Assembly (NCBI GenBank): GCA_902601785.1
Contig: CACKOH010000008.1
Coordinates: 1-47,140, forward strand
DNA length: 47,140 nucleotides
Reading direction: 5' to 3'
DNA from: an uncultured Pelagibacteraceae bacterium
Lineage (GTDB): Bacteria > Pseudomonadota > Alphaproteobacteria > Pelagibacterales > Pelagibacteraceae
In this document: positions 27,885 to 42,407 of the stretch, one piece after another
Layout: each line of letters begins with the position of its first letter
Numbering within the stretch: position 1 is the first letter of the stretch
Translations under genes and position numbers: made by a program
The notes under the pieces: generated by a model
Told to the model about the DNA's origin: nothing
The model's database searches: none
Seen by the model: the letters and a program-made list of their open reading frames with translations, nothing else

Positions 27885-27914
27885 CAATCTCAGGTTGACC
27901 GTAGAATTCATTTG

Positions 27915-27928
27915 GAGTCTAATTATTT
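27915..27928 (+). repeat. GAGTC-headed direct repeat, copy 2
   Basis: GAGTCTAATTATTT is the second copy. It ends 7 bases before the ccrM ATG, so it occupies the place of a ribosome binding site. The 44-base offset is close to four helical turns, so both copies face the same side of the DNA. Confidence 0.65.
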
Positions 27929-27935
27929 TTTAAAA

Positions 27936-29006
27936 ATGAAAACTGATTTTAAAAATAAAATTATTAACGGAGATAGTCTTGAAGAGTTAAAAAAAATTCC
28001 ACGTGAAACTTTTGATTTAATTTTTGCAGATCCTCCATACAATCTTCAATTAAAAAGCGAATTAGTCAGACCGGACAGATCTAAAGTAGATGCTGTAAAT
28101 GATAAATGGGATCAGTTCGAAAATTTTAAAAAATACGATGAGTTTACATATAAGTGGTTATCAGAATGTAAAAGAATTTTAAAAAGAGATGGAGCAATTT
28201 GGGTTATTGGGAGTTATCACAACATTTTTAGAGTAGGAGCTGCAATTCAAAATTTAGGATTTTGGATTTTAAACGATGTTATTTGGAATAAAAATAATCC
28301 AATGCCTAATTTTAGAGGAACACGATTTACCAATGCACATGAAACTTTGATTTGGGCATCTAAAAGTGAAAAATCAAAATATACATTTAATTATCAATCA
28401 CTAAAATGTTTGAATGATGATTTACAAATGAGATCAAACTGGGATCTTCCAATTTGCAGCGGTGCAGAAAGATTGAAGAAAAACGGCAAAAAAGTGCATT
28501 CAACTCAAAAACCAGAGGCTTTGCTTCATAGAGTTTTATTAGCGTCTACAAATAAAAATGACATGATTTTAGATCCTTTTTTAGGTTCAGGAACAACAGC
28601 AACTGTCGCGAAAAAACTTGGTAGAAATTATTTTGGTATAGAAAAAGAAAAAAATTATTTCAAAGCTGCAGAAAAAAGAATTAAAAATACAAAAACTATT
28701 GAAGATGATTTACTTGATACTCTTAAAAATAATAGATCAAAACCTAGAATACCATTTGGATCATTAGTTGAACTTGGGATAATTAAGCCAGGCACTAACA
28801 TTTTTGACAATAAGAAAAAAATTACTGCAAAAATTTTAGCAGATGGAAGTATAAAGCATAACCAATCTGAAGGCTCTATTCATAAAGTTGCAGCTACTAT
28901 TTTAGGTGCTGAAAGTTGCAATGGATGGACATATTGGCATTGTGATATTGATGGCAGAATATATCCAATAGACTACTTAAGACAAAGATTAATCTCAAAA
29001 AATTAA
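27936..29006 (+). CDS. ccrM: Cell-cycle DNA adenine methyltransferase CcrM (GANTC)
   Basis: CcrM methylates adenine in GANTC and helps time the alphaproteobacterial cell cycle. The 356-residue protein (Caulobacter about 358) has the beta-class order: DPPY at residues 32-35 (FADPPYNLQ), then FLGSGT at 215-220 (LDPFLGSGTTATVA). HSTQKPEALLHRV lies between them. The C-terminal RAMA domain (GSLVELGIIKPGTNI, WTYWHCDIDGRIYPID) marks CcrM rather than ordinary restriction-associated enzymes. A TTG eight codons upstream is in frame, but the ATG at 27936 is preferred. No cognate restriction gene is nearby. The end overlaps the convergent monooxygenase by 4 bases. Confidence 0.95.
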   Translation: MKTDFKNKIINGDSLEELKKIPRETFDLIFADPPYNLQLKSELVRPDRSKVDAVNDKWDQFENFKKYDEFTYKWLSECKRILKRDGAIWVIGSYHNIFRVGAAIQNLGFWILNDVIWNKNNPMPNFRGTRFTNAHETLIWASKSEKSKYTFNYQSLKCLNDDLQMRSNWDLPICSGAERLKKNGKKVHSTQKPEALLHRVLLASTNKNDMILDPFLGSGTTATVAKKLGRNYFGIEKEKNYFKAAEKRIKNTKTIEDDLLDTLKNNRSKPRIPFGSLVELGIIKPGTNIFDNKKKITAKILADGSIKHNQSEGSIHKVAATILGAESCNGWTYWHCDIDGRIYPIDYLRQRLISKN

Positions 29007-30154
29007 TTGTTGTAAATTTTTCCTAAATAATTTTCTAAAAATTTTTTGTTCTTGGTTAATATTTTCAATCCCATATTTCTAAAAAACACTATAATTGGAT
29101 TTGATACATGAAAAGCAAATTGATTTAGTTTTGATCTATTATTAATCATTTTTACCCTTGAAACTCTATTACTATAATAATTAGATTTGTTATTTGTGAT
29201 ACTCTCAAATAATTCTGATGCGCCTTCAATGGACTGTGAGGCTCCTTGTGCAAAAGAAGGTGGAAAGGCAAAAAAGGCATCTCCAACAAGATGAATATTT
29301 TCAACTGATTTATGAAAATCTTTACTAACAAAAACTGGGAAGCACTTGATATTATTTAGGTTATTTAAAATTGAAGAAGAAATTTTATTTTGTAATTTAT
29401 TTTTAATTCCCTCGATAAAAGCTTTTTCTTCAAAAAAGCTATAATTTTTAAGCTCATTTGCAGTTAATTGATGCTTTAAAACACCAATAAAATTGTATTC
29501 TCCAGCACTGTTATCAATTGGGTAGATAACATAATGAAAATCAGGACCTACAAATAAAGAAATGTTCATTTCATTTAAATTAATTAAGTTAGCCCGTAGG
29601 ATTTTACCTCTAATTGCAATACAATTATTATAAGTTGGTTGAATTTGATTATTAGAAATTAAGGATTTTCCTTTAGAAAAAATACCATCAGATATAATTA
29701 GATATTCACAAATAAAATTTTGATTATTTTTAAAAGTTAAGTTTATTTGATCATTTTTTTTTTCGATTTTCTCAATATTATGTTCATATTTTATAACCTG
29801 CTCATCCAATCTATTTTTTAAAAATTCAACTAATGTAGATCTTTTCATTGTGGTATATTTACATTCTTTAGAATTGTATTCAGAAATATTCAAATCAGAT
29901 ATTTTTTTTTGATTTTCAATCTCATAAAAATCAATTTTTTCAGGATTAAATTTTTCTTTCTTTTCTATTTCATTGAATCCGATTTTGTTTAAAAGCTTGA
30001 TACTATTGGTTGAAAGTTGAATCCCATACCCCTCTTCTAACTCTATAGAGTGCTTTTTTTCAAATATTATAACTTGATAATTGGGATTATCTTTAAATAA
30101 ATTTGCAATAAATAAACCTGAAATTCCTGCTCCTATAATTCCAATTTTTTTCAT
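29003..30154 (-). CDS. FAD-dependent aromatic-ring monooxygenase (UbiH/salicylate hydroxylase type)
   Basis: The 383-residue flavoprotein belongs to the PHBH-fold group A hydroxylases. It has the FAD ADP-binding loop GIIGAGISGLFIANLF, a DG motif (LIISDGIFSKG), and the GD motif block VHLVGDAFFAFPPSFAQGAS. Possible roles are ubiquinone ring hydroxylation or oxidation of an aromatic substrate. No other ubiquinone ring gene is beside it, and the sequence does not decide. It overlaps the mutY stop by 4 bases on the same strand, an unusual neighbour for mutY. Confidence 0.82.
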   Translation of the reverse strand: MKKIGIIGAGISGLFIANLFKDNPNYQVIIFEKKHSIELEEGYGIQLSTNSIKLLNKIGFNEIEKKEKFNPEKIDFYEIENQKKISDLNISEYNSKECKYTTMKRSTLVEFLKNRLDEQVIKYEHNIEKIEKKNDQINLTFKNNQNFICEYLIISDGIFSKGKSLISNNQIQPTYNNCIAIRGKILRANLINLNEMNISLFVGPDFHYVIYPIDNSAGEYNFIGVLKHQLTANELKNYSFFEEKAFIEGIKNKLQNKISSSILNNLNNIKCFPVFVSKDFHKSVENIHLVGDAFFAFPPSFAQGASQSIEGASELFESITNNKSNYYSNRVSRVKMINNRSKLNQFAFHVSNPIIVFFRNMGLKILTKNKKFLENYLGKIYNN

Positions 30155-31134
30155 TTATTACTTTCTAGGTATCTAACAATTCTTTTTGTAAAAGTTGGTA
30201 ATGTGTATTTTTTTAACTTCTTAGGATCGATCCAGTGGGAAGTAGGCAATGAACCTACTTTATTCTTATGTTCAATTTTTATATTCATATTCATATTTGA
30301 CATCTTGAAATTAACTATATCTGTTGAACTTGTAGGCTTTGATAATTCTTGCATGGGAAAAATACTGAAATTTTTCAAAAAATTAAATCTAGTATTTTTA
30401 ATCAAAAGATATTTATTTTTATCTTTATAAACTTTTAGTAAATAATATTTATTGTTATTCTTTTTTTTGATTTTAGTAAGTAGGAAATCTTTTTTTTTTA
30501 AAGCAATACATTTACTTGAAATTGGACATTGTTCACAATGAGGATTACTCGGTTTGCAAATTAAAGCTCCTAGTTCCATTAAAGCCTGAGCATAATCACT
30601 TGCCCTGCTTGAATACCCAAAAATTTCTTTTTTCTTGATTAAGTTCTCTTTATTAATTTGATTTTCTTTTTTTAAATATAAATATCTTTTAAGAACTCTT
30701 TCAATGTTTCCATCTAAAGGAATAATGCTTTTATTAAAAACTATAGCTGATATTGCACTCGCAGTGTAATCACCAATACCTGGAAGAGATTTTAAATCTG
30801 AATAGTTTCTTGGAAGTTTTTTATCAAATTTTTTAATAACTAATAGAGCAGTTTTTTTTAAGTTTCTTACCCTAGAATAGTAGCCAAGCCCCTCCCAAAG
30901 CTTAATCAGTTTTTGATCTTCGAAATTTGCTAAAGTCTCTAAGTCAGGAATATTTTTTATAAATCTATTAAAGTAAGGGATTACTGTTGCTACCTGAGTT
31001 TGCTGTAACATAAATTCACTAACTAATGTGTAATATTGCTTTTTTTTATGAGAGACATTTTTTCTCCAAGGTAAAACTCGCTTATTAATGTCATACCAAT
31101 TAAGAATTTTATTTGTTATTATTGTTTCTTTCAT
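30151..31134 (-). CDS. mutY: A/G-specific adenine glycosylase
   Basis: MutY removes adenine mispaired with 8-oxoguanine. Numbered from the ATG at 31134 the protein has 327 residues. It carries catalytic Glu40 (EFMLQQTQVATVIP), the helix-hairpin-helix LPGIGDYTASAI, catalytic Asp141 (IPLDGNIERVL), a complete 4Fe-4S site (Cys193, 200, 203, 209), and a diverged NUDIX-like 8-oxoG-reading domain at the C-terminus. A longer frame to 31179 would run into the divergent neighbour and is not supported by the family. The start codon directly abuts the start codon of the DUF721 gene. Confidence 0.95.
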   Translation of the reverse strand: MKETIITNKILNWYDINKRVLPWRKNVSHKKKQYYTLVSEFMLQQTQVATVIPYFNRFIKNIPDLETLANFEDQKLIKLWEGLGYYSRVRNLKKTALLVIKKFDKKLPRNYSDLKSLPGIGDYTASAISAIVFNKSIIPLDGNIERVLKRYLYLKKENQINKENLIKKKEIFGYSSRASDYAQALMELGALICKPSNPHCEQCPISSKCIALKKKDFLLTKIKKKNNNKYYLLKVYKDKNKYLLIKNTRFNFLKNFSIFPMQELSKPTSSTDIVNFKMSNMNMNIKIEHKNKVGSLPTSHWIDPKKLKKYTLPTFTKRIVRYLESNK

Positions 31135-31623
31135 ATGCAATTTAAAAATAATACTAAGCAGAGAAATGTCTCCATTCAAGGCTTAAGATCTTTTAAAGAC
31201 ACTTTGCCAAAAAGCGTAAAAAAAATTATTAATAAAAAAGGTCACATTTATTCAGAAACCCTGAGTAATTGGAAATACCTTGTGGGTGATGAGTTTTTCA
31301 AGTGCTGTTATCCAAAAAAATTTAAAAGTTCAAATAAATTTGGTGTAAGCACATTGGTGATAATGGTCAAAAGAGGTCACGAAGTTGACATGGAGTATTC
31401 TAAAAAAGATATTTTAAATAAGATGAATGCCTATTTTGGTTATTCAGTTGTTGAGAAACTTAAATTCATTAGTTTTGATGATGAACAAAAAATTTCTTCT
31501 AAACTAAAAATTAATGAGAAAAATGTGACAATAAACAAATATAAAGATAAAATTAGTAATGTTAAAAATGAAAAAATTAAACAATCATTATTAGAGTTAA
31601 CTAAAGTGTTTAAACAAAAATGA
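31135..31623 (+). CDS. DUF721 protein, DciA-like
   Basis: The 162-residue protein resembles the DUF721/DciA family, whose better-studied members help load the replicative helicase DnaB. An N-terminal helix-rich part ends in YSETLSNWKYLVGDEFFKCCYP, the family's W..(I/L)VG..(L/F)...(C/T).P signature. A VMVKRGHEVDMEYSK-like strand segment and a charged C-terminal tail follow. The order mutY/DUF721/DsbA/smc is conserved in alphaproteobacteria, which supports the call. It starts at 31135, immediately beside the mutY start, and overlaps the next gene by 4 bases. Confidence 0.75.
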   Translation: MQFKNNTKQRNVSIQGLRSFKDTLPKSVKKIINKKGHIYSETLSNWKYLVGDEFFKCCYPKKFKSSNKFGVSTLVIMVKRGHEVDMEYSKKDILNKMNAYFGYSVVEKLKFISFDDEQKISSKLKINEKNVTINKYKDKISNVKNEKIKQSLLELTKVFKQK

Positions 31624-32198
31624 AAAAAATCTTAATAATTTCCATATTTTTTTTCTTCAGTACTTTAAGTACTCAAGCAGATGAAATAAAAAGAATTCTT
31701 GTAGGAAATAAGAGTGCAAAAATATCGATTATTGCTTTTGAATCTTTGACTTGTAGCCACTGTGCTAACTTTCATAAAGATGTTTATCCTTTATTAAAAA
31801 AAGAATATTTAGATACAGGTTTAGCTAAGATTGAGTTTAGACATTTTCCTCTAGATAATGCTGCTTTTAATGCTTCAAAAGTTGCTCAATGTAAAAATGA
31901 TGGGAATGTAGAGATATTGGAAAGTTTGTATGCTAATCAACAAAAGTGGGTAAAAGGAAGTTCAGTTGAGGAAGCGAATATTAATCTTAAAAAATTTTTA
32001 TCAACAGAAGGTTTCAATATTGATTTTGAAAGTTGCATTAACGACAAGCAAATTGAAGACTTTGTATTAAATGACCGAATCGATGGAGCAAAAAACTTCA
32101 AAGTAAATGCTACCCCTACGATAATAATTAATAACGAAAAGTTTGATAAAACCTTAAATTACAAAAATTTAAAAAAAGCTCTTGAAAAACTGATATAA
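31620..32198 (+). CDS. DsbA-family thioredoxin-fold disulfide oxidoreductase
   Basis: The 192-residue protein has a signal peptide (cleavage near residue 20, TQA/DE), a CSHC redox motif (Cys45-Cys48 in ESLTCSHCANFH), and a cis-proline region (VNATPTIIIN). It resembles the DsbA/BdbD-type thiol oxidases that introduce disulfides into periplasmic proteins. In alphaproteobacteria such a gene commonly lies between DUF721 and smc, as here (4-base overlap upstream, smc ATG 8 bases downstream). Confidence 0.9.
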   Translation: MKKILIISIFFFFSTLSTQADEIKRILVGNKSAKISIIAFESLTCSHCANFHKDVYPLLKKEYLDTGLAKIEFRHFPLDNAAFNASKVAQCKNDGNVEILESLYANQQKWVKGSSVEEANINLKKFLSTEGFNIDFESCINDKQIEDFVLNDRIDGAKNFKVNATPTIIINNEKFDKTLNYKNLKKALEKLI

Positions 32199-32206
32199 GT
32201 TTGTGC

Positions 32207-34780
32207 ATGGAGTTTAAAAAAATCCAGTTAAACGGATTTAAATCTTTTGCAGAAAAAGCAGATTTTTTAATCGAAGATGGTTTAACTGGTATTGTTGGAC
32301 CTAACGGGTGTGGAAAATCCAATATAGTTGAATCTCTAAGATGGGCAATGGGTGAAACATCTGCAAAAAGCATGCGTGGATCTGGAATGGAGGATGTAAT
32401 TTTTTCAGGTACTTCAAATAAAGCTTCGAAGAATATTGCTGAAGTTACTATAGAAGTTGAAAATAAAGATAAAGAAGGTCCAATTCAGTATCGAGAGCAT
32501 GATCAAGTTCAAATTAAAAGAAAAATAGAAAGAGATAAAGGTTCTAAATTTTACATAAACGGTAAAGAAGTACGAGCTAGAGATGCTCAAATGTTTTTTG
32601 CTGATCTATCTACTGGTGCACATTCTCCATCTATGATTAGTCAAGGAAGAATTGGAGCTTTAGTAACTGCAAAACCTACAGATCGAAGAGCAATATTAGA
32701 GGAAGCTGCAGGTATTTCTGGGCTGCATGTGAGAAGACATGAAGCAGAATTAAGATTGGGTGCTGCAGAAAATAATCTTAAAAGAGCTGATGAGCTTAGA
32801 AGACAACAGGAAAAGCAATTAGCAAATCTTCAAAAACAGGCAGAGGAAGCTTCAAAATATAAACTTATTTCTGAAGAAATAAAAAAAATTGAGGCTGGTT
32901 TATATTATTTAAAATTAATTGAGATAGACAAAGAAATCAGGATAGAAAATGAAATAAATAATGAAGCTGAAGGTGAAGTTGTTGGATTTAATACTAAAAT
33001 ATCAGAGCTGGAAAGTTTAATAAAACTCTCAACTGATAAAGTTTCACCACTTAGAGAAAAAAATATAGAAAATTTGTCAAGAATTCAAAGACTTAATCTA
33101 GAGCTTCAAAGTTTAGATGAAGAAAACACAAGAACTCAAGATGAAATCGAAACTATTAAAAAATCAATTCAAACTCTTGATGACGATATCGCAAGAGAAA
33201 AAGGGATAATTATTGACGCTAATTCTAATGAAAAAAGACTAAAAGAGGAAAAATTGGATTTAATAGAGACAGACTCTAAATATTTTGAAACAGAAAAGCT
33301 TTCTAACGAAGAGCTAGAAGTAGAAAAAAATAGATTAATAGAGGAACAAAAAGCTGTTGATGATGTTATAAACAGCTTTGCTGAGCAGACAATCAATATT
33401 AGCTTGGGCCCAATTAAAAATGTCCAAAGTTCAATCCTAAGGGTTAAAGAATTAATTGATAGTAATGAAATTAATCAGGCAGTTACTTTACTAGACAGAT
33501 GTAACATGCAGCTTAATAATTTTTTAAATGACCTTAAAGATGACAAATCTAGAAATGAATTATTAAGTGTTAATGAAAAATCTAAAAATATAAAATTACT
33601 TCAAGAAAAATATGCTGATGCTTATAGTAAAAATCAATCTATCAAAAATGAGTCTATAAAAAGAAATGAAAGAATTAAAACCATTGAAACAGAAATTGAA
33701 AGTTGGAAAAATTTATTATTAAATTCAGAGAAAATGGTTTTAGAACTTACTGAAAGAAAAAATAAATTGTCATCTCAATTGAATGATTTAGAAAATCAGC
33801 CAAGAGTTCAGGCTGAACGGAAAGGTCAAATTTCAGAAAATTTGAGAATTTCCGATAAGGAAAAAATTGATAACGAACTAATTATTGATGAAACTGATAA
33901 AAAAATTGAAACTTTAAGACGTGAATTAAATAAAATTCAAGAGCAATCAATACAAATCAGAGAAAGAAAAGCTAGTTCAGGAGCAACTATTGAAGGTCTT
34001 CAAAAAAGGAAAGGAGATTTATTAGACCGTATAAGTTCTGAACTGAATCTTAATGAAGAAAATATTTTAGAGAATTCAAATTTAAATGGTGTTGATGAGC
34101 TCCCCAACGCTGTTGATCAAGAAGATGCATTGGATAAAAAGAAGCAAGAAAGAGAAAGGTTTGGCTCTGTAAATTTAAAAGCAGACGAAGAAACTAATAA
34201 ATATGAGGAAGAGATTAAAAAAATGGAGCAAGATCGAGCGGATTTAGTAACAGCTATTGTAAAATTAAAAGATAGCATAAATGAACTTAATCAAAAAGGA
34301 CGTGAAAGATTAATAGAGGCTTTCGAGAAAGTGAATAGAAAGTTTAATGAGGTCTATACAAAATTGTTCAATGGAGGGAATGCAAAATTAGAATTAGTTG
34401 ACTCTGATGATCCTCTGGAAGCTGGATTAGAGATGTTGGTAAGCCCTCCTGGAAAAAGATTACAATCAATAACCTTATTATCTGGGGGAGAACAAGCACT
34501 AACGGCACTTTCATTGATCTTCGCAGTATTTTTAACTAACCCATCTCCAATTTGTGTTTTGGATGAGGTTGATGCTCCGCTGGATGACGCAAATGTAACA
34601 AGATTTTGCAGTTTACTTGAAGAGTTGACTAAAATAACAAATACTAAATTTATCATTGTAACTCATCATGCTTTAACCATGTCTAAAATGAATAGATTAT
34701 ATGGGGTAACTATGCCTCAAAAAGGTATCAGTCAGTTAGTTGCAGTTGATTTACAAAAAGCAGAGAGTATGGTTGCCTAA
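32207..34780 (+). CDS. smc: Chromosome segregation protein SMC, short form without a recognisable hinge
   Basis: The ATP-binding cassette of a structural-maintenance-of-chromosomes protein is complete. Walker A is GPNGCGKSN (about residue 31), the N-lobe block is SPSMISQGRIGALVTAKP, the signature is LLSGGEQALTALSL, Walker B is ICVLDEVDAPLDD, and the H-loop is VTHHALTMSKM. Between the heads lie two coiled-coil stretches (about 170-385 and 450-690). At 857 residues it is about 300 shorter than usual bacterial SMC. The middle (about 385-450) has no glycine-rich hinge dimerisation domain, only a short helical region (around GPIKNVQSSILRVKELID). I chose ATG 32207 over an in-frame TTG at 32201. Confidence 0.93.
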   Translation: MEFKKIQLNGFKSFAEKADFLIEDGLTGIVGPNGCGKSNIVESLRWAMGETSAKSMRGSGMEDVIFSGTSNKASKNIAEVTIEVENKDKEGPIQYREHDQVQIKRKIERDKGSKFYINGKEVRARDAQMFFADLSTGAHSPSMISQGRIGALVTAKPTDRRAILEEAAGISGLHVRRHEAELRLGAAENNLKRADELRRQQEKQLANLQKQAEEASKYKLISEEIKKIEAGLYYLKLIEIDKEIRIENEINNEAEGEVVGFNTKISELESLIKLSTDKVSPLREKNIENLSRIQRLNLELQSLDEENTRTQDEIETIKKSIQTLDDDIAREKGIIIDANSNEKRLKEEKLDLIETDSKYFETEKLSNEELEVEKNRLIEEQKAVDDVINSFAEQTINISLGPIKNVQSSILRVKELIDSNEINQAVTLLDRCNMQLNNFLNDLKDDKSRNELLSVNEKSKNIKLLQEKYADAYSKNQSIKNESIKRNERIKTIETEIESWKNLLLNSEKMVLELTERKNKLSSQLNDLENQPRVQAERKGQISENLRISDKEKIDNELIIDETDKKIETLRRELNKIQEQSIQIRERKASSGATIEGLQKRKGDLLDRISSELNLNEENILENSNLNGVDELPNAVDQEDALDKKKQERERFGSVNLKADEETNKYEEEIKKMEQDRADLVTAIVKLKDSINELNQKGRERLIEAFEKVNRKFNEVYTKLFNGGNAKLELVDSDDPLEAGLEMLVSPPGKRLQSITLLSGGEQALTALSLIFAVFLTNPSPICVLDEVDAPLDDANVTRFCSLLEELTKITNTKFIIVTHHALTMSKMNRLYGVTMPQKGISQLVAVDLQKAESMVA

Positions 34781-37173: not shown

Positions 37174-38634
37174 ATGAATTCTATAGTGATTGGATCTGGA
37201 TTTGGAGGAATAGCTGCAGCTTTACGCCTAAAGGCAAAAGGACATCAAGTTAAATTAATTGAAAAACATCCTGATCTAGGTGGTAGAGCCAGAGTATTTA
37301 AGAAAAATGGTTTTATATTTGATGGTGGCCCGACTGTAATTACTGCACCTTACTTAATTAACGAGTTGTTTGAATTATTTAAAAAGGACCCAAAAAACTA
37401 CATTGAGTTATCTCCACTTAAAATTTGGTACCAATTTATTTTTGAGGATAAATCTAAATTTAATTATTCTGGTGATGAAGCTAATATGGTTAAACAAATA
37501 GAGGATATAAGCAAAGATGATGTTGAAGGATATCAAAAATTAGTAAGTTTTACCAAAAAGATTTTTGATAAAGGGTTTACAGAGTTAGCAGATGTTCCTT
37601 TTGACAAACCTTTTGTAATGATGAAACAACTTCCAGCGCTACTTAAACTTAAAAGCTATAAATCAGTTTATTCGTTGGTATCCTCATTTATAAAAAATGA
37701 AAAATTAAGAAGAGTGCTCAGTATGCATCCACTATTGGTAGGAGGTAATCCATTCACCACTACTTCAATTTATGGACTAATACTTTACTTAGAGAAAAAA
37801 TGGGGAATCCATTATTCTATGGGGGGCACAGGAAATATTATTAAAGGTCTAGAAAAACTTATGCTTGAAGAGGGAATTGATGTAATCAAAAATAGAGAAG
37901 TTACTGAAATCATTTCAAAAAGTAATAAAATTACTGGTATTAAATTAAATAACCAAGAAATCATTAAGGCTGAAAACGTTGTTTGTAACGCAGATCCACC
38001 AGCTTTTTATGAAAAAATGTTAAAAAAAAATAGTCAAGGCTCTTTTATTTTTAATTGGAAAAAGAAAAGAATGGAATATTCAATGGGTCTTTTCGTTTAC
38101 TATTTTGGAACAAAAAAGATTTATGAAGATGTTGAGCATCATACAATTAAGTTTGGAAATAAATACAAAGAACATCTGGAAGATATTTTTAATAATAAAA
38201 AATTAAATAACGATATTAGCTATTATCTCCACAGACCCTCGGCAACTGACAAGTCAATGGCACCGGAGGGAAATGACTGTTTTTATGTTCTAGTACCAGT
38301 TCCAAATAATCAATCTAAAATTGATTGGCAAACTGAAGGTGAAAACATGAAAAATTTAGTAATTGATAAAATGGAAAAAGATTTAATGCCAAATCTTAGA
38401 GAAAATATTGTGGCTGATTTTTATTTAACCCCAGATTATTTTGAAAAAGAGTTAAACACAAAATTTGGATCTGGATTTTCAATTCAGCCTAAATTCACTC
38501 AATCTGCATATTTTAGATTCCATAATAAATCTGAAATTTATGATGGACTTTATTTTGTTGGAGCTGGAACGCACCCAGGAGCTGGGGTGCCTGGAGTGTT
38601 ATCATCAGCAAAAGTCTTGGATAAACTGCTTTAA
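37174..38634 (+). CDS. crtI: Phytoene desaturase
   Basis: CrtI converts phytoene to lycopene by successive desaturations. The 486-residue flavoprotein has the dinucleotide-binding start VIGSGFGGIAAALRLKAKGH followed by IEKHPDLGGRARVF and the FDGGPTVITAPY block. The C-terminal bacterial-type carotenoid oxidoreductase signature is present (YFVGAGTHPGAGVPGVLSSA). Order crtI-crtB-crtY-blh with 1- and 14-base overlaps marks a retinal operon. crtE (geranylgeranyl diphosphate synthase) is not in the window. Confidence 0.96.
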   Translation: MNSIVIGSGFGGIAAALRLKAKGHQVKLIEKHPDLGGRARVFKKNGFIFDGGPTVITAPYLINELFELFKKDPKNYIELSPLKIWYQFIFEDKSKFNYSGDEANMVKQIEDISKDDVEGYQKLVSFTKKIFDKGFTELADVPFDKPFVMMKQLPALLKLKSYKSVYSLVSSFIKNEKLRRVLSMHPLLVGGNPFTTTSIYGLILYLEKKWGIHYSMGGTGNIIKGLEKLMLEEGIDVIKNREVTEIISKSNKITGIKLNNQEIIKAENVVCNADPPAFYEKMLKKNSQGSFIFNWKKKRMEYSMGLFVYYFGTKKIYEDVEHHTIKFGNKYKEHLEDIFNNKKLNNDISYYLHRPSATDKSMAPEGNDCFYVLVPVPNNQSKIDWQTEGENMKNLVIDKMEKDLMPNLRENIVADFYLTPDYFEKELNTKFGSGFSIQPKFTQSAYFRFHNKSEIYDGLYFVGAGTHPGAGVPGVLSSAKVLDKLL

Positions 38635-39485
38635 TGTCTGCTAAAAATTATCTAGCAACATATGCAAAATCTTTTAATTGGGCTGGTTTTTTTCTACCAA
38701 AAAATACTTACAAAAAATGTTCAGCCCTTTACGATTTTTGCAGAGTAGCTGATAACATTGCAGATGATGAAAATACTATTACAGTTAAAAAAGAGAAATT
38801 TAAAAAATTTAAAGATAATTTTGAAAATAAAAATTTCAACGATCCAATAATTAAAAATATTTGGGATCTTATTTCTGAATATAATATTTCAATTACAATT
38901 ATTCATGATTTACTTGATGGTATCAATTCAGATATCAAAGAACAGGTAAAGTTAACTACAGAAAAAGAATTATTAATATACTCTTATCGTGTAGCAGGTA
39001 CTGTAGGACTAATGATGGCCAAAATACTAAAAGTAAATAAAAAAAATTCTTTAAAGTCTGCAATTGATCTTGGTATCGCTATGCAACTAACAAATATTTC
39101 AAGAGACGTAATTGAAGATTTTAATAATAACAGGGTCTACATTGATCAAAATTTTGAAAATATAAAATCTACAATTGAATTATCAGAAAAATTTTATGAA
39201 AATTCTTTTTACTCAATTAAAGAAATACCCTTAAGTTTTAGATTTTCTATTTTAGTTGCAAGAAGAGTTTATAGAAAAATTGGTTATAAAATTTTAAACA
39301 AAAAAAACTTTGAAAATTATAAAAAATCAGGAAAAATTTATGTCAATAATGTAGAAAAAATAGTTGAGACACTACTCTCAATAATTGATTTACTTAAACT
39401 TGTATTAACCAATAATAATGATGATAATATTGATCATGACCATTATTTAATTAATGAAGAAATTAAATTAGATGAGAGAATTTGA
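38634..39485 (+). CDS. crtB: Phytoene synthase
   Basis: CrtB condenses two geranylgeranyl diphosphates to phytoene. The 283-residue protein has both Asp-rich magnesium motifs: Asp40-Asp44 in CRVADNIADDE and Asp158-Asp162 in QLTNISRDVIEDFNNNRVYI. The first sits after the YAKSFNWAGFFLP start typical of squalene/phytoene synthases. The second motif's QLTNIxRD(V)xED wording is typical for phytoene rather than squalene synthase. The ATG shares a base with the crtI stop. Confidence 0.95.
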   Translation: MSAKNYLATYAKSFNWAGFFLPKNTYKKCSALYDFCRVADNIADDENTITVKKEKFKKFKDNFENKNFNDPIIKNIWDLISEYNISITIIHDLLDGINSDIKEQVKLTTEKELLIYSYRVAGTVGLMMAKILKVNKKNSLKSAIDLGIAMQLTNISRDVIEDFNNNRVYIDQNFENIKSTIELSEKFYENSFYSIKEIPLSFRFSILVARRVYRKIGYKILNKKNFENYKKSGKIYVNNVEKIVETLLSIIDLLKLVLTNNNDDNIDHDHYLINEEIKLDERI

Positions 39486-40536
39486 CTATATAATTATTGG
39501 CGGCGGTTGCGCTGGGTTATCTTTGGCATATGAATTAGAAATTCATGAAAAATTCAAAAATAAAACATTAGCAATTATTGAACCTAGAAACGATTATATT
39601 AGAGATAAAACCTGGTCTTTTTGGAAAGTTGCATCTCATAATTTTGAAGATTGTGTAAAGCACAGCTGGAGTAATTTTTCTGTAAATATACCTGATCAAA
39701 CTAAATACATAAAATGTAATAACTCTCCTTATCAAGCTATTGATAGCGGGCTATTTTACCAGAAGATAATCAATACCTTAAAAAAAAATACCAACATTCA
39801 TTTTTTTAAGAATATAAATGAAATCAGTAATGAAAATTCATTTGTGTTCAACAGTGTCAGTGATGTTTCTGATAGTAAAAATGACTTATGGCAACATTTT
39901 TCAGGTATTGAGATTGAAACAAATAAAGATGTTTTTGACGATCAGATATTTAACCTAATGGATTTTGATTGTGAGCAAAGAGACAGTGTACACTTTTTTT
40001 ATACTTTACCATTTTCAAAAAAAAATGCACTTATTGAGACAACATGGATCTCCGATTTAAATCATAAATCAAATCAAGATTATTCAATACAGCTAAAAGA
40101 TTATATTAAAAATAAATTAAAAATTAAAAATTATGAGATTAAATTCAAAGAAACTGGTGCTATCCCATTGTTTCATCCACAAAATATAAAAAAAATAAAT
40201 CAGATGGAAATTGGTACAGCAGGAGGTATGACCAGATTAAGCACTGGATATACTTTCATGAATATTCAGAGCCAAAGCAAATATATTAGAGAAAATTTTG
40301 AAAATATTCAAAAAGTAAATAATTTTACCGTAAATTCAAAATATAATTTTTTAGATAATATATTTTTAAAAGTATTAAAAAAAAATTCAGAAAAAATGCC
40401 AGAGATATTCTTTAAAATGTTTAATTGTTCTCCAAGCACAGTTATCAATTTTTTATCAAATAAAAGTAATATCTATGAGGACTTCTCTATTATTTTAAAG
40501 ATGCCAAAACTGGTTTTTTTGAGGGAATTGCTCTGA
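39472..40536 (+). CDS. crtY: Lycopene beta-cyclase
   Basis: CrtY closes both ends of lycopene to give beta-carotene. The 354-residue flavoprotein has the DYIIIGGGCAGLSLAYEL nucleotide loop, RDKTWSFW (the CrtY-type W.FW motif), the internal FSGIEIETNKDVFD segment, a FYTLPFSKKNALIETTW block, and GTAGGMTRLSTGYTFMNIQ near the C-terminus. It is slightly shorter than the usual 380. It overlaps crtB by 14 bases, and blh follows 1 base after its stop. Confidence 0.94.
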   Translation: MREFDYIIIGGGCAGLSLAYELEIHEKFKNKTLAIIEPRNDYIRDKTWSFWKVASHNFEDCVKHSWSNFSVNIPDQTKYIKCNNSPYQAIDSGLFYQKIINTLKKNTNIHFFKNINEISNENSFVFNSVSDVSDSKNDLWQHFSGIEIETNKDVFDDQIFNLMDFDCEQRDSVHFFYTLPFSKKNALIETTWISDLNHKSNQDYSIQLKDYIKNKLKIKNYEIKFKETGAIPLFHPQNIKKINQMEIGTAGGMTRLSTGYTFMNIQSQSKYIRENFENIQKVNNFTVNSKYNFLDNIFLKVLKKNSEKMPEIFFKMFNCSPSTVINFLSNKSNIYEDFSIILKMPKLVFLRELL

Positions 40537-40537
40537 A

Positions 40538-41473
40538 ATGAAATCTCAAATAAAAAAAATAAATCTAAATCACTCTTTTATTTTTTTTTTATTTTGTAAT
40601 ATATTTTCAGTAATAGTCTTTAAATTTAGTGATTTAAATATATCAAGCTTATTTTGTTTGCTACTTATATTAACCATAGGTGTTTCTCATGGAGCCCTAG
40701 ATCATTTAAAAGGTAAAAAACTTATTTCAATTTTAAATATTAAAAAATTTTATATTTTTTATTTAATTTACTCACTTATGGCTCTCTCAGTTATATTCAT
40801 ATGGACTATTGTGCCAGCTATTACTTTAATAATTTTTTTGGCTGTTGCTTCTTTTCATTTTGGTAAAGAAGATACGCAATTTTTAATTAACAAAAACACA
40901 AACTTAACTTCAATACTTTATTTTTTTAGAGGCTTGTTAGTTATTGTTATTCCTTTGTACTTCAATTTTGATGAGACAGTTACAATATTTAAAATGTTAC
41001 TAATCGATAATGAACAATTTTACTCAGGTTTAAGTTTTATTGAAAAGTATAAAATAATTGAAATAGCTATTAGTTTAAGTGTGCTATCAAGCATCATTTT
41101 ATTTTTAAGCGAATTTAATATCAAAAAATTTGCAATTTTTTTAGATTTTTTCTCAATTATAATTTTGAATTATTACCTATCACCCCTAGTTGCGTTTACT
41201 ATTTACTTTTGTTTTTTACACTCTATTAGGCATACTATTTCACTTGCTATAGAAATGGATAATTCCAATCTAAAAAATGGTTTAAAATTATTTGCTCTAA
41301 AAGCTTTTCCGTTAACAGTTTTGACTGTTATTTTCTCTTTGATTGGTCTTTATTTCCTTAATAATGTCTATGAATTAAATAGCGCAATATTAAAAATAAT
41401 TTTTATAGGTTTGGCGTCTTTAACCTTTCCACATATATTGCTGGAATATTTTTTAGAAAAAAATGAAAAATAA
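40538..41473 (+). CDS. blh: Beta-carotene 15,15'-dioxygenase, Brp/Blh family
   Basis: Blh cleaves beta-carotene into two retinals, the chromophore of proteorhodopsin. The 311-residue membrane protein has about eight hydrophobic segments. The iron-ligand histidines are conserved: His51/His56 in VSHGALDHLK, His107 in ASFHFGKED, and His228/His232 in FLHSIRHT. It completes the crtIBY-blh set. No rhodopsin gene lies in the window, so the opsin must be encoded elsewhere if present. Its end overlaps ispH by 11 bases. Confidence 0.93.
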   Translation: MKSQIKKINLNHSFIFFLFCNIFSVIVFKFSDLNISSLFCLLLILTIGVSHGALDHLKGKKLISILNIKKFYIFYLIYSLMALSVIFIWTIVPAITLIIFLAVASFHFGKEDTQFLINKNTNLTSILYFFRGLLVIVIPLYFNFDETVTIFKMLLIDNEQFYSGLSFIEKYKIIEIAISLSVLSSIILFLSEFNIKKFAIFLDFFSIIILNYYLSPLVAFTIYFCFLHSIRHTISLAIEMDNSNLKNGLKLFALKAFPLTVLTVIFSLIGLYFLNNVYELNSAILKIIFIGLASLTFPHILLEYFLEKNEK

Positions 41474-42407
41474 AGAATTAAAAATCTTGTTATCTGCACC
41501 ACGTGGATTTTGTGCAGGTGTTGAAAGAGCGATTGAAATTGTTGAAAAATCAATTCAGAAATTTGGCGCTCCAGTTTACGTTCGACATGAAATTGTTCAT
41601 AACAAACATGTTGTTGACGATCTAAAAAATAAAGGAGCTATATTTGTTGAAGAACTTGAAGAAATAAAAGACAAAACAAGACCAGTTATTTTTTCAGCTC
41701 ATGGTGTACCAAAGAAAATACCAGAGGATGCAAAAAACTATAAAATGACTTATGTTGATGCAACATGTCCCTTGGTCTCAAAAGTTCACAGAGAGGCGGA
41801 AAATCTTAATAAAGCAGGCTACCAAATTATTTTAATTGGACACGAAAACCATCCAGAAGTAATTGGAACTATGGGGCAACTTCCAGATAGTACGGTTACG
41901 TTAATACAAAATGAAGATGAAGCTCAAAATTACCATGCTGAAAGAATTGATAAAATTGCTTATATAACTCAGACGACATTATCAGTTGATGACACCAAGG
42001 AAATAATAAAAATCTTAAAAAATAAATATCCAAAAATAAAAGAACCGATGAAGGAAGATATTTGTTATGCCACAACCAATAGGCAGGCTGCAGTTAAGAA
42101 AATTGCAAAACAATGTGAAATGTTTTTTGTAATTGGAAGCAGAAATTCTTCAAACTCAGTAAGGCTGGTAGAAGTTGCAAAAAAATCTGGATGTGAAAAC
42201 TCACACTTAATTCATTCGGAAAGTGAAATTCCATATAATGAAATAGAAAAATTTAATACCATAGGTATTTCGTCAGGTGCGTCAGCTCCAGAAGTTTTAG
42301 TTGAAAATTTCATAAATTCTTTAAAAAATAAATTCACTTTAAAAATAAATGAAGTTGAAATAATAAAAGAAAACGTAGTTTTTAAAGTCCCAAATAAATT
42401 AAATTAG
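41463..42407 (+). CDS. ispH: 4-hydroxy-3-methylbut-2-enyl diphosphate reductase
   Basis: IspH (LytB) makes IPP and DMAPP in the last MEP-pathway step, using a 4Fe-4S cluster. The 314-residue protein has all three cluster cysteines, Cys17 (APRGFCAGVERAI), Cys102 (VDATCPLVSKVH) and Cys201 (ICYATTNRQ). The active-site Glu/His are in GHENHPEVIGTMGQ and the late SSNSVRL/GASAPE motifs are present. It overlaps blh by 11 bases, coupling isoprenoid supply to the carotenoid genes, and abuts thrB without a gap. Confidence 0.97.
   Translation: MKNKELKILLSAPRGFCAGVERAIEIVEKSIQKFGAPVYVRHEIVHNKHVVDDLKNKGAIFVEELEEIKDKTRPVIFSAHGVPKKIPEDAKNYKMTYVDATCPLVSKVHREAENLNKAGYQIILIGHENHPEVIGTMGQLPDSTVTLIQNEDEAQNYHAERIDKIAYITQTTLSVDDTKEIIKILKNKYPKIKEPMKEDICYATTNRQAAVKKIAKQCEMFFVIGSRNSSNSVRLVEVAKKSGCENSHLIHSESEIPYNEIEKFNTIGISSGASAPEVLVENFINSLKNKFTLKINEVEIIKENVVFKVPNKLN

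Follow-up and report, generated by a model that had tools for sequence, protein, structure and literature searches.

An Smc protein without a recognisable hinge domain in the Pelagibacterales

The smc gene and its ATPase motor

We have analyzed the smc gene of an uncultured Pelagibacteraceae bacterium together with its relatives. The gene lies in a stretch of 47,140 nucleotides (assembly GCA_902601785.1, contig CACKOH010000008.1), referred to here as the window, and occupies 32207..34780 on the + strand, stop codon included; the listing of open reading frames (ORFs) also offers a TTG start two codons upstream of 32207. As judged from its translation, the family model TIGR02168 and a hinge profile made for the class, the product is a structural maintenance of chromosomes (SMC) protein, Smc, of 857 residues without a hinge.

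All parts of the protein are read from the + strand. The N-terminal half of the head (residues 1-170, 32207..32716) and the C-terminal half (residues 656-857, 34172..34777) can both be aligned to the solved Smc heads 3zgx, 5xg3 and 5h68. The initial annotation of this DNA had credited the 857-residue product with a complete set of ATPase motifs, and each of these was located: Walker A (GPNGCGKS) at residue 31 (32297-32320), the signature (LSGGE) at residue 758 (34478-34492), Walker B (VLDEVDA) at residue 784 (34556-34576) and the H-loop (TH) at residues 819-820 (34658-34666). Between the head halves lie an ascending arm (residues 171-392, 32717..33382), modelled by AlphaFold2 as one long helix; a tip in the hinge position (residues 393-445, 33383..33541); and a descending arm (residues 446-655, 33542..34171), delimited by the AlphaFold2 model and by alignment. 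The protein scores 658.1 bits against TIGR02168, the model for prokaryotic Smc, for which the curated cut-off is 567.35. The match falls into two separate parts, of which the first spans profile positions 2-391 of 1181. Among 528 relatives the best 80 are all records of Pelagibacteraceae, Pelagibacterales or Candidatus Pelagibacter and are 81-99% identical. By these sequence characters the protein is identified as the bacterium's Smc by descent and as the ATPase subunit of Smc-ScpAB.

The ratio of nonsynonymous to synonymous substitution rates (dN/dS), calculated over 300 pairs, is 0.023 and 0.012 for the two head halves, 0.042 and 0.056 for the arms and 0.106 for the tip. This range of 0.012-0.106 indicates that the gene is under purifying selection.

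Absence of the hinge and structure of the tip

The initial annotation had reported no recognisable hinge between the coiled coils and had proposed a search with the Pfam model SMC_hinge (PF06470). That search gives no match to the 857-residue protein, even at an expected value (E) of <=10. Taken alone the Pfam negative is weak evidence, because PF06470 overlooks real alphaproteobacterial hinges: it was detected in only 64 of 192 genomes of the class, was missed in the Caulobacter control and also misses the hinge-bearing relatives L093 and L094. Since the Pfam model is too weak in this class, 30 full-length Smcs of Alphaproteobacteria were used to build a class-specific profile of the hinge region, which was run on 183 Smc sequences from the loci. 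Among the 153 sequences that had not contributed to the profile, 12 bear a hinge, with a worst E of 2.8e-21; they come from nine genomes and belong to f27, f122, f41, f151 and f112, which, like f137 below, are arbitrary family labels within the class. The other 141 (137 from Pelagibacterales and four from f137), the window Smc among them, have no match to the profile better than E 8.1, and no sequence falls in the gap between the two groups. Five further profiles, each from 8 randomly drawn builders, returned the identical 42 positives and nothing else. The absence of a hinge domain from the window Smc is confirmed at the level of sequence, and the comparison of orthologues across the order that had been recommended shows the same for all 137 Pelagibacterales sequences.

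That a hinge is present and hidden by divergence, or that the gene is broken or mis-assembled, is barely credible. The insensitivity of the Pfam model in this class, with its failure on L093 and L094, speaks for a concealed hinge, but the class profile detects these same divergent hinges easily and finds nothing here; relatives of nearly equal length (864-881 residues) match it with E 2.8e-21 or better, which disposes of the reservation in the initial annotation that a normal hinge might be concealed in a protein of this size. There is also less room: 426 residues separate the heads in the shortest form (798 residues in all), against 492-493 in f27, which has a hinge, and 773-791 in the usual form. 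The lost block ends in RWDG, which is invariant in the hinge-bearing relatives. A broken gene or assembly error was rejected on account of the open frame, the low dN/dS and the recurrence of this design in 114 of the 118 Pelagibacterales genomes, among them single-contig ones. A hinge encoded elsewhere was looked for as well and was not found. Pfam finds no hinge-like sequence in the bacterium's own genome, and a search with an alignment of 21 hinges found none at E<=0.001 in 24 Pelagibacterales genomes or in four f137 genomes; one weak match (G446, E 0.18) is no better than chance. The same query found the hinge in six of six hinge-bearing genomes, a positive control that is not independent, as five of the six had supplied a row of the query.

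The arms are also reduced. They measure about 222 and 210 residues, against about 333 and 323 in the usual form, so that each is about one third shorter; the hinge of class Smcs has about 115-125 residues. The segment joining the coils, described in the initial annotation as short and helical, is indeed so in the models: positions 33356-33550 encode residues 384-448, at the tip of the rod, with two short predicted helices. In the AlphaFold2 models the long helix of residues 171-392 is followed by short helices at 401-418 and 422-441 (or 443) and by a return helix from 446, and residues 331-519 form helices and turns only, with no strands. The coiled coil is thus predicted to be a hairpin capped by short helices. 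Mean predicted local distance difference test (pLDDT) values for the tip-only model were 85.9 for the best and 62.6 for the lowest of five models; the full-length model is weak in the heads (mean pLDDT 63.4, predicted template modelling score 0.29). Foldseek comparison of the tip model with the PDB gave no match at E<=0.001 among 603, and the best weak matches include Smc coiled-coil fragments, as expected for any coil. A zinc hook at the tip was rejected as well, as CxxC is absent from residues 201-620 in all 141 hingeless sequences.

Head-to-head spacing ranges from 426 to 511 residues in hingeless forms, and the length of the tip varies between genera and within a genus, which makes it unlike one conserved mini-hinge fold. 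The suggestion that this lineage uses a shortened Smc with a mini-hinge or an alternative dimer contact is supported in part: the protein is short and hingeless throughout the order, and a mini-hinge dimer or another contact, like loop extrusion, is putative. A patch of the tip (Q424, A425, L428, L429, D430 and R431) is invariant in 48 Pelagibacter sequences, and could bind a partner. That another protein joins the tips and so supplies the function of the hinge nevertheless appears very improbable given the negative searches for hinge-like sequence in the own genome and in the 24 genomes of the order, though a partner unrelated to the hinge is conceivable.

Distribution and gene context

The order-wide survey comprised 118 Pelagibacterales genomes at least 80% complete. 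The Smc was matched in 114 of these, single-contig genomes included, and in all nine genera; the four misses are multi-contig drafts. Among the matches listed, ORFs spanning both heads have about 799-891 residues, and shorter ones, e.g. of 533 or 746 residues, represent part of the protein. In the class as a whole, 271 of 385 genomes have some match to the window Smc. Both sampled Pelagibacterales families lack the hinge and form a single clade in the tree of heads, with support 100. Forms of 857 and 798 residues are interleaved within a genus in this tree, so tip length has probably been altered more than once.

Outside the order, short Smcs were seen on re-inspection of 27 hand-picked, mostly small genomes, a sample distinct from a random survey of the class. 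Family f137 (L227, L228, L229 and L233), with Smcs of 803-817 residues in draft genomes of 0.8-1.1 Mb, is a second hingeless lineage. Families f27 and f122 (L093-L096 and L272), which form a clade in the head tree with support 100, have Smcs of 864-881 residues whose arms are only about 200 and 181 residues long and which keep a hinge, divergent and missed by Pfam in L093 and L094. The idea that short arms imply loss of the hinge was therefore rejected, and short arms are a trait separate from hinge loss. Hinge-bearing Smcs of 935, 960 and 1099 residues occur in G332 (L271), G272 (L270) and G099 and G205 (L266 and L267), respectively; arm length changes stepwise across the small-genome families of the class.

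In a head tree of 51 taxa, f137 is separate from Pelagibacterales and pairs with f112, which is a long branch (support 92), possibly through long-branch attraction. When f112 is left out (23 taxa), f137 groups with f27 and f122, with support 58. Neither a constrained grouping of f137 with Pelagibacterales nor one of Pelagibacterales with f27 and f122 is rejected by the approximately unbiased test (p-AU 0.44 and 0.32). The trees are compatible with a single loss of the hinge and with a separate second loss in f137.

In the window, smc is preceded by a gene for a DsbA-like thioredoxin-fold protein (31620..32198, +; Pfam Thioredoxin_4) and followed by an atpI-like gene (ATPase_gene1, PF09527; 34790..35065, +). 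Within flanks of 1.5 kb, a thioredoxin-fold gene is found near 28 of 30 full-length smc genes of the class and atpI near 21 of 30. Both genes also flank smc in families f27 and f122; in f137 the thioredoxin-fold gene is present in all four cases and atpI in three. The gene thus stands in a context common to its hinge-bearing relatives.

Other genes of the window are noted in passing. Upstream, at 30151-32198, the beginning of a DciA-like gene (PF05258) on the + strand is overlapped by a MutY-like glycosylase gene (HhH-GPD) on the - strand; the thioredoxin-fold gene comes next and then smc. Some 3 kb before smc, 27912-29006 encodes a DNA methyltransferase that carries a RAMA domain at its C-terminus and that we take to resemble CcrM. 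Downstream, 37174-42407 holds a run of carotenoid/retinal genes: a flavin adenine dinucleotide (FAD) oxidoreductase, presumably phytoene desaturase-like, phytoene synthase, lycopene cyclase and beta-carotene dioxygenase, followed by LytB.

The usual partners of Smc are also present. ScpA was found in 107 and ScpB in 106 of the 118 Pelagibacterales genomes, and ParB in 33 of 41 relatives, the own genome among them. The initial annotation had advised looking for scpA and scpB; the bacterium's own genome has both, side by side, with products of 247 and 233 residues whose family matches are nearly full length. ScpB occurs in three of four f137 genomes, against none of four genomes without a match to the window Smc. 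These gene contents suggest a working Smc-ScpAB. A narrower or different role, such as RecN-like DNA repair with the loop-extruding function of condensin given up, is improbable in view of the retained ScpA, ScpB and ParB, the TIGR02168 match above the curated cut-off and a gene context that is that of smc.

Proposed working and comparison with known systems

In the proposed working, Smc, which has lost its hinge domain and about one third of each arm, would still load with ParB and ScpAB and cycle ATP. Two Smc molecules would be joined at their heads by the kleisin ScpA, ATP-driven engagement of the heads would add to the pairing, and contacts between arms or between tips would take over the role of the hinge. 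That Smc works with ScpAB, paired by these three means together, is in our view the most likely reading, and we favour it with some confidence. The wider proposal, that the chromosomes of Pelagibacter and the rest of its order are folded and segregated by a Smc-ScpAB lacking both the hinge and any substitute dimerisation domain, is more tentative, and doubts about it are substantial.

Two published observations speak for such pairing. The hinge of Bacillus subtilis Smc is replaceable by the zinc hook of Rad50, with normal growth on rich medium (PMC5344682), and contacts between the arms are said to play a probable part in the dimerisation of Smc that lacks the hinge (PMC5526789, crediting Minnen 2016). 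Several observations weigh the other way. Smc of B. subtilis is non-functional when hinge dimerisation is lost, and its functional short arms have 253-267 residues (PMC5344682), against about 222 and 210 here, although the boundaries were drawn differently. Conservation within Smc is lowest at the tip (dN/dS 0.106), which also varies in length, and both facts disfavour a strict tip-tip interface. As to the partners, 11 of the 118 genomes, all of them drafts, have Smc and no ScpA or ScpB that could be found; the eleven ScpA-negative genomes are also ScpB-negative, as expected of neighbouring genes in drafts. A ScpA match is missing in 9 of the 104 genomes at least 90% complete.

Some of these same facts would suit an arrangement like open tweezers, in which there is no distal contact, two Smcs meet only through ATP-driven head engagement and the kleisin, and a closed ring is never formed. 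The missing hinge and zinc hook and the variable tip agree with it, as do hinge-less yeast Smc5/Smc6 sub-complexes (EQ mutants), which were co-isolated with ATP and showed no detectable interaction without it (PMC8327961). Purifying selection still acts on the tip, however, arm length is conserved within each Smc form, and hinge dimerisation is required by B. subtilis Smc (PMC5344682). We regard this arrangement as unlikely, though it deserves to be taken seriously.

Nature may already have carried out the hinge-removal experiment, with the ATP motor and the usual partners kept. In the SMC work consulted, the hinge figures as the domain of dimerisation, and B. subtilis Smc does not function unless its hinge dimerises (PMC5344682); if the order folds its chromosomes with a Smc-ScpAB that has no substitute dimerisation domain, a working condensin could in nature do without the hinge that is needed in that species. 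The hinge would then have been lost once or twice in marine lineages with small genomes, beside relatives in which only the arms were shortened. An order-wide natural Smc that lacks the hinge and is accompanied by ScpA, ScpB and ParB offers a direct test of whether loading on chromosomes and loop extrusion require closure of the ring at the tip, and three states can be compared: usual arms with a hinge, short arms with a hinge (f27 and f122) and short arms without one (Pelagibacterales and f137). In an open-access library, at the level of titles, abstract openings and selected passages and with subscription papers and preprints outside the scope, searches aimed at this point turned up no paper on an Smc that naturally lacks the hinge. 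A survey of arm lengths in natural SMCs, published in 2017 and covering 3,337 prokaryotic sequences, took hinge alignments as its seed (PMC5344682), so that hingeless Smcs could not have entered it.

The window Smc shares with the bacterial Smc of Smc-ScpAB (TIGR02168, about 1150 residues in alphaproteobacteria) the head motifs, the family score, the gene context and the presence of ScpA and ScpB in the genome, and differs from it in lacking the hinge and in its arms of about 222 and 210 rather than 333 and 323 residues. As the hinge is missing despite descent from Smc, it is best placed as a hingeless variant and not as a canonical member. The short-armed Smcs of f27 and f122 (864-881 residues) are similar in total and arm length, but keep the hinge. 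RecN is an SMC-like ATPase that is not known to have the usual hinge. Its likeness to the window Smc is limited to a short coiled coil with apical helices (PMC4255302), the helices here being predicted ones. RecN has a coil of roughly one quarter the length usual for SMCs and no known accessory proteins (PMC4255302), whereas kleisin and KITE partners are kept alongside the window Smc.

Rad50 and the archaeal ASRP have the same head-and-coil plan without an SMC hinge, but use a zinc hook for dimerisation (among ASRP, the vast majority do; PMC10586767, PMC9389158), while the hingeless Smcs have no CxxC. Identity with Rad50 or ASRP was rejected for want of a zinc hook and because the window Smc scores 47 bits against the ASRP model NF045487, far below its cut-off of 300. 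Two constructs made in B. subtilis, mini-Smc and zinc-hook Smc, resemble the window Smc in having shortened arms or a replaced hinge; they differ in being man-made and in retaining a dedicated dimerisation domain (PMC5344682). The arms of natural SMCs have their main length modes at 238, 341 and 515 residues and minor ones at 163 and 423 (PMC5344682), and the arms of the window Smc, about 222 and 210 residues by our own boundaries, come nearest to the 238-residue mode.
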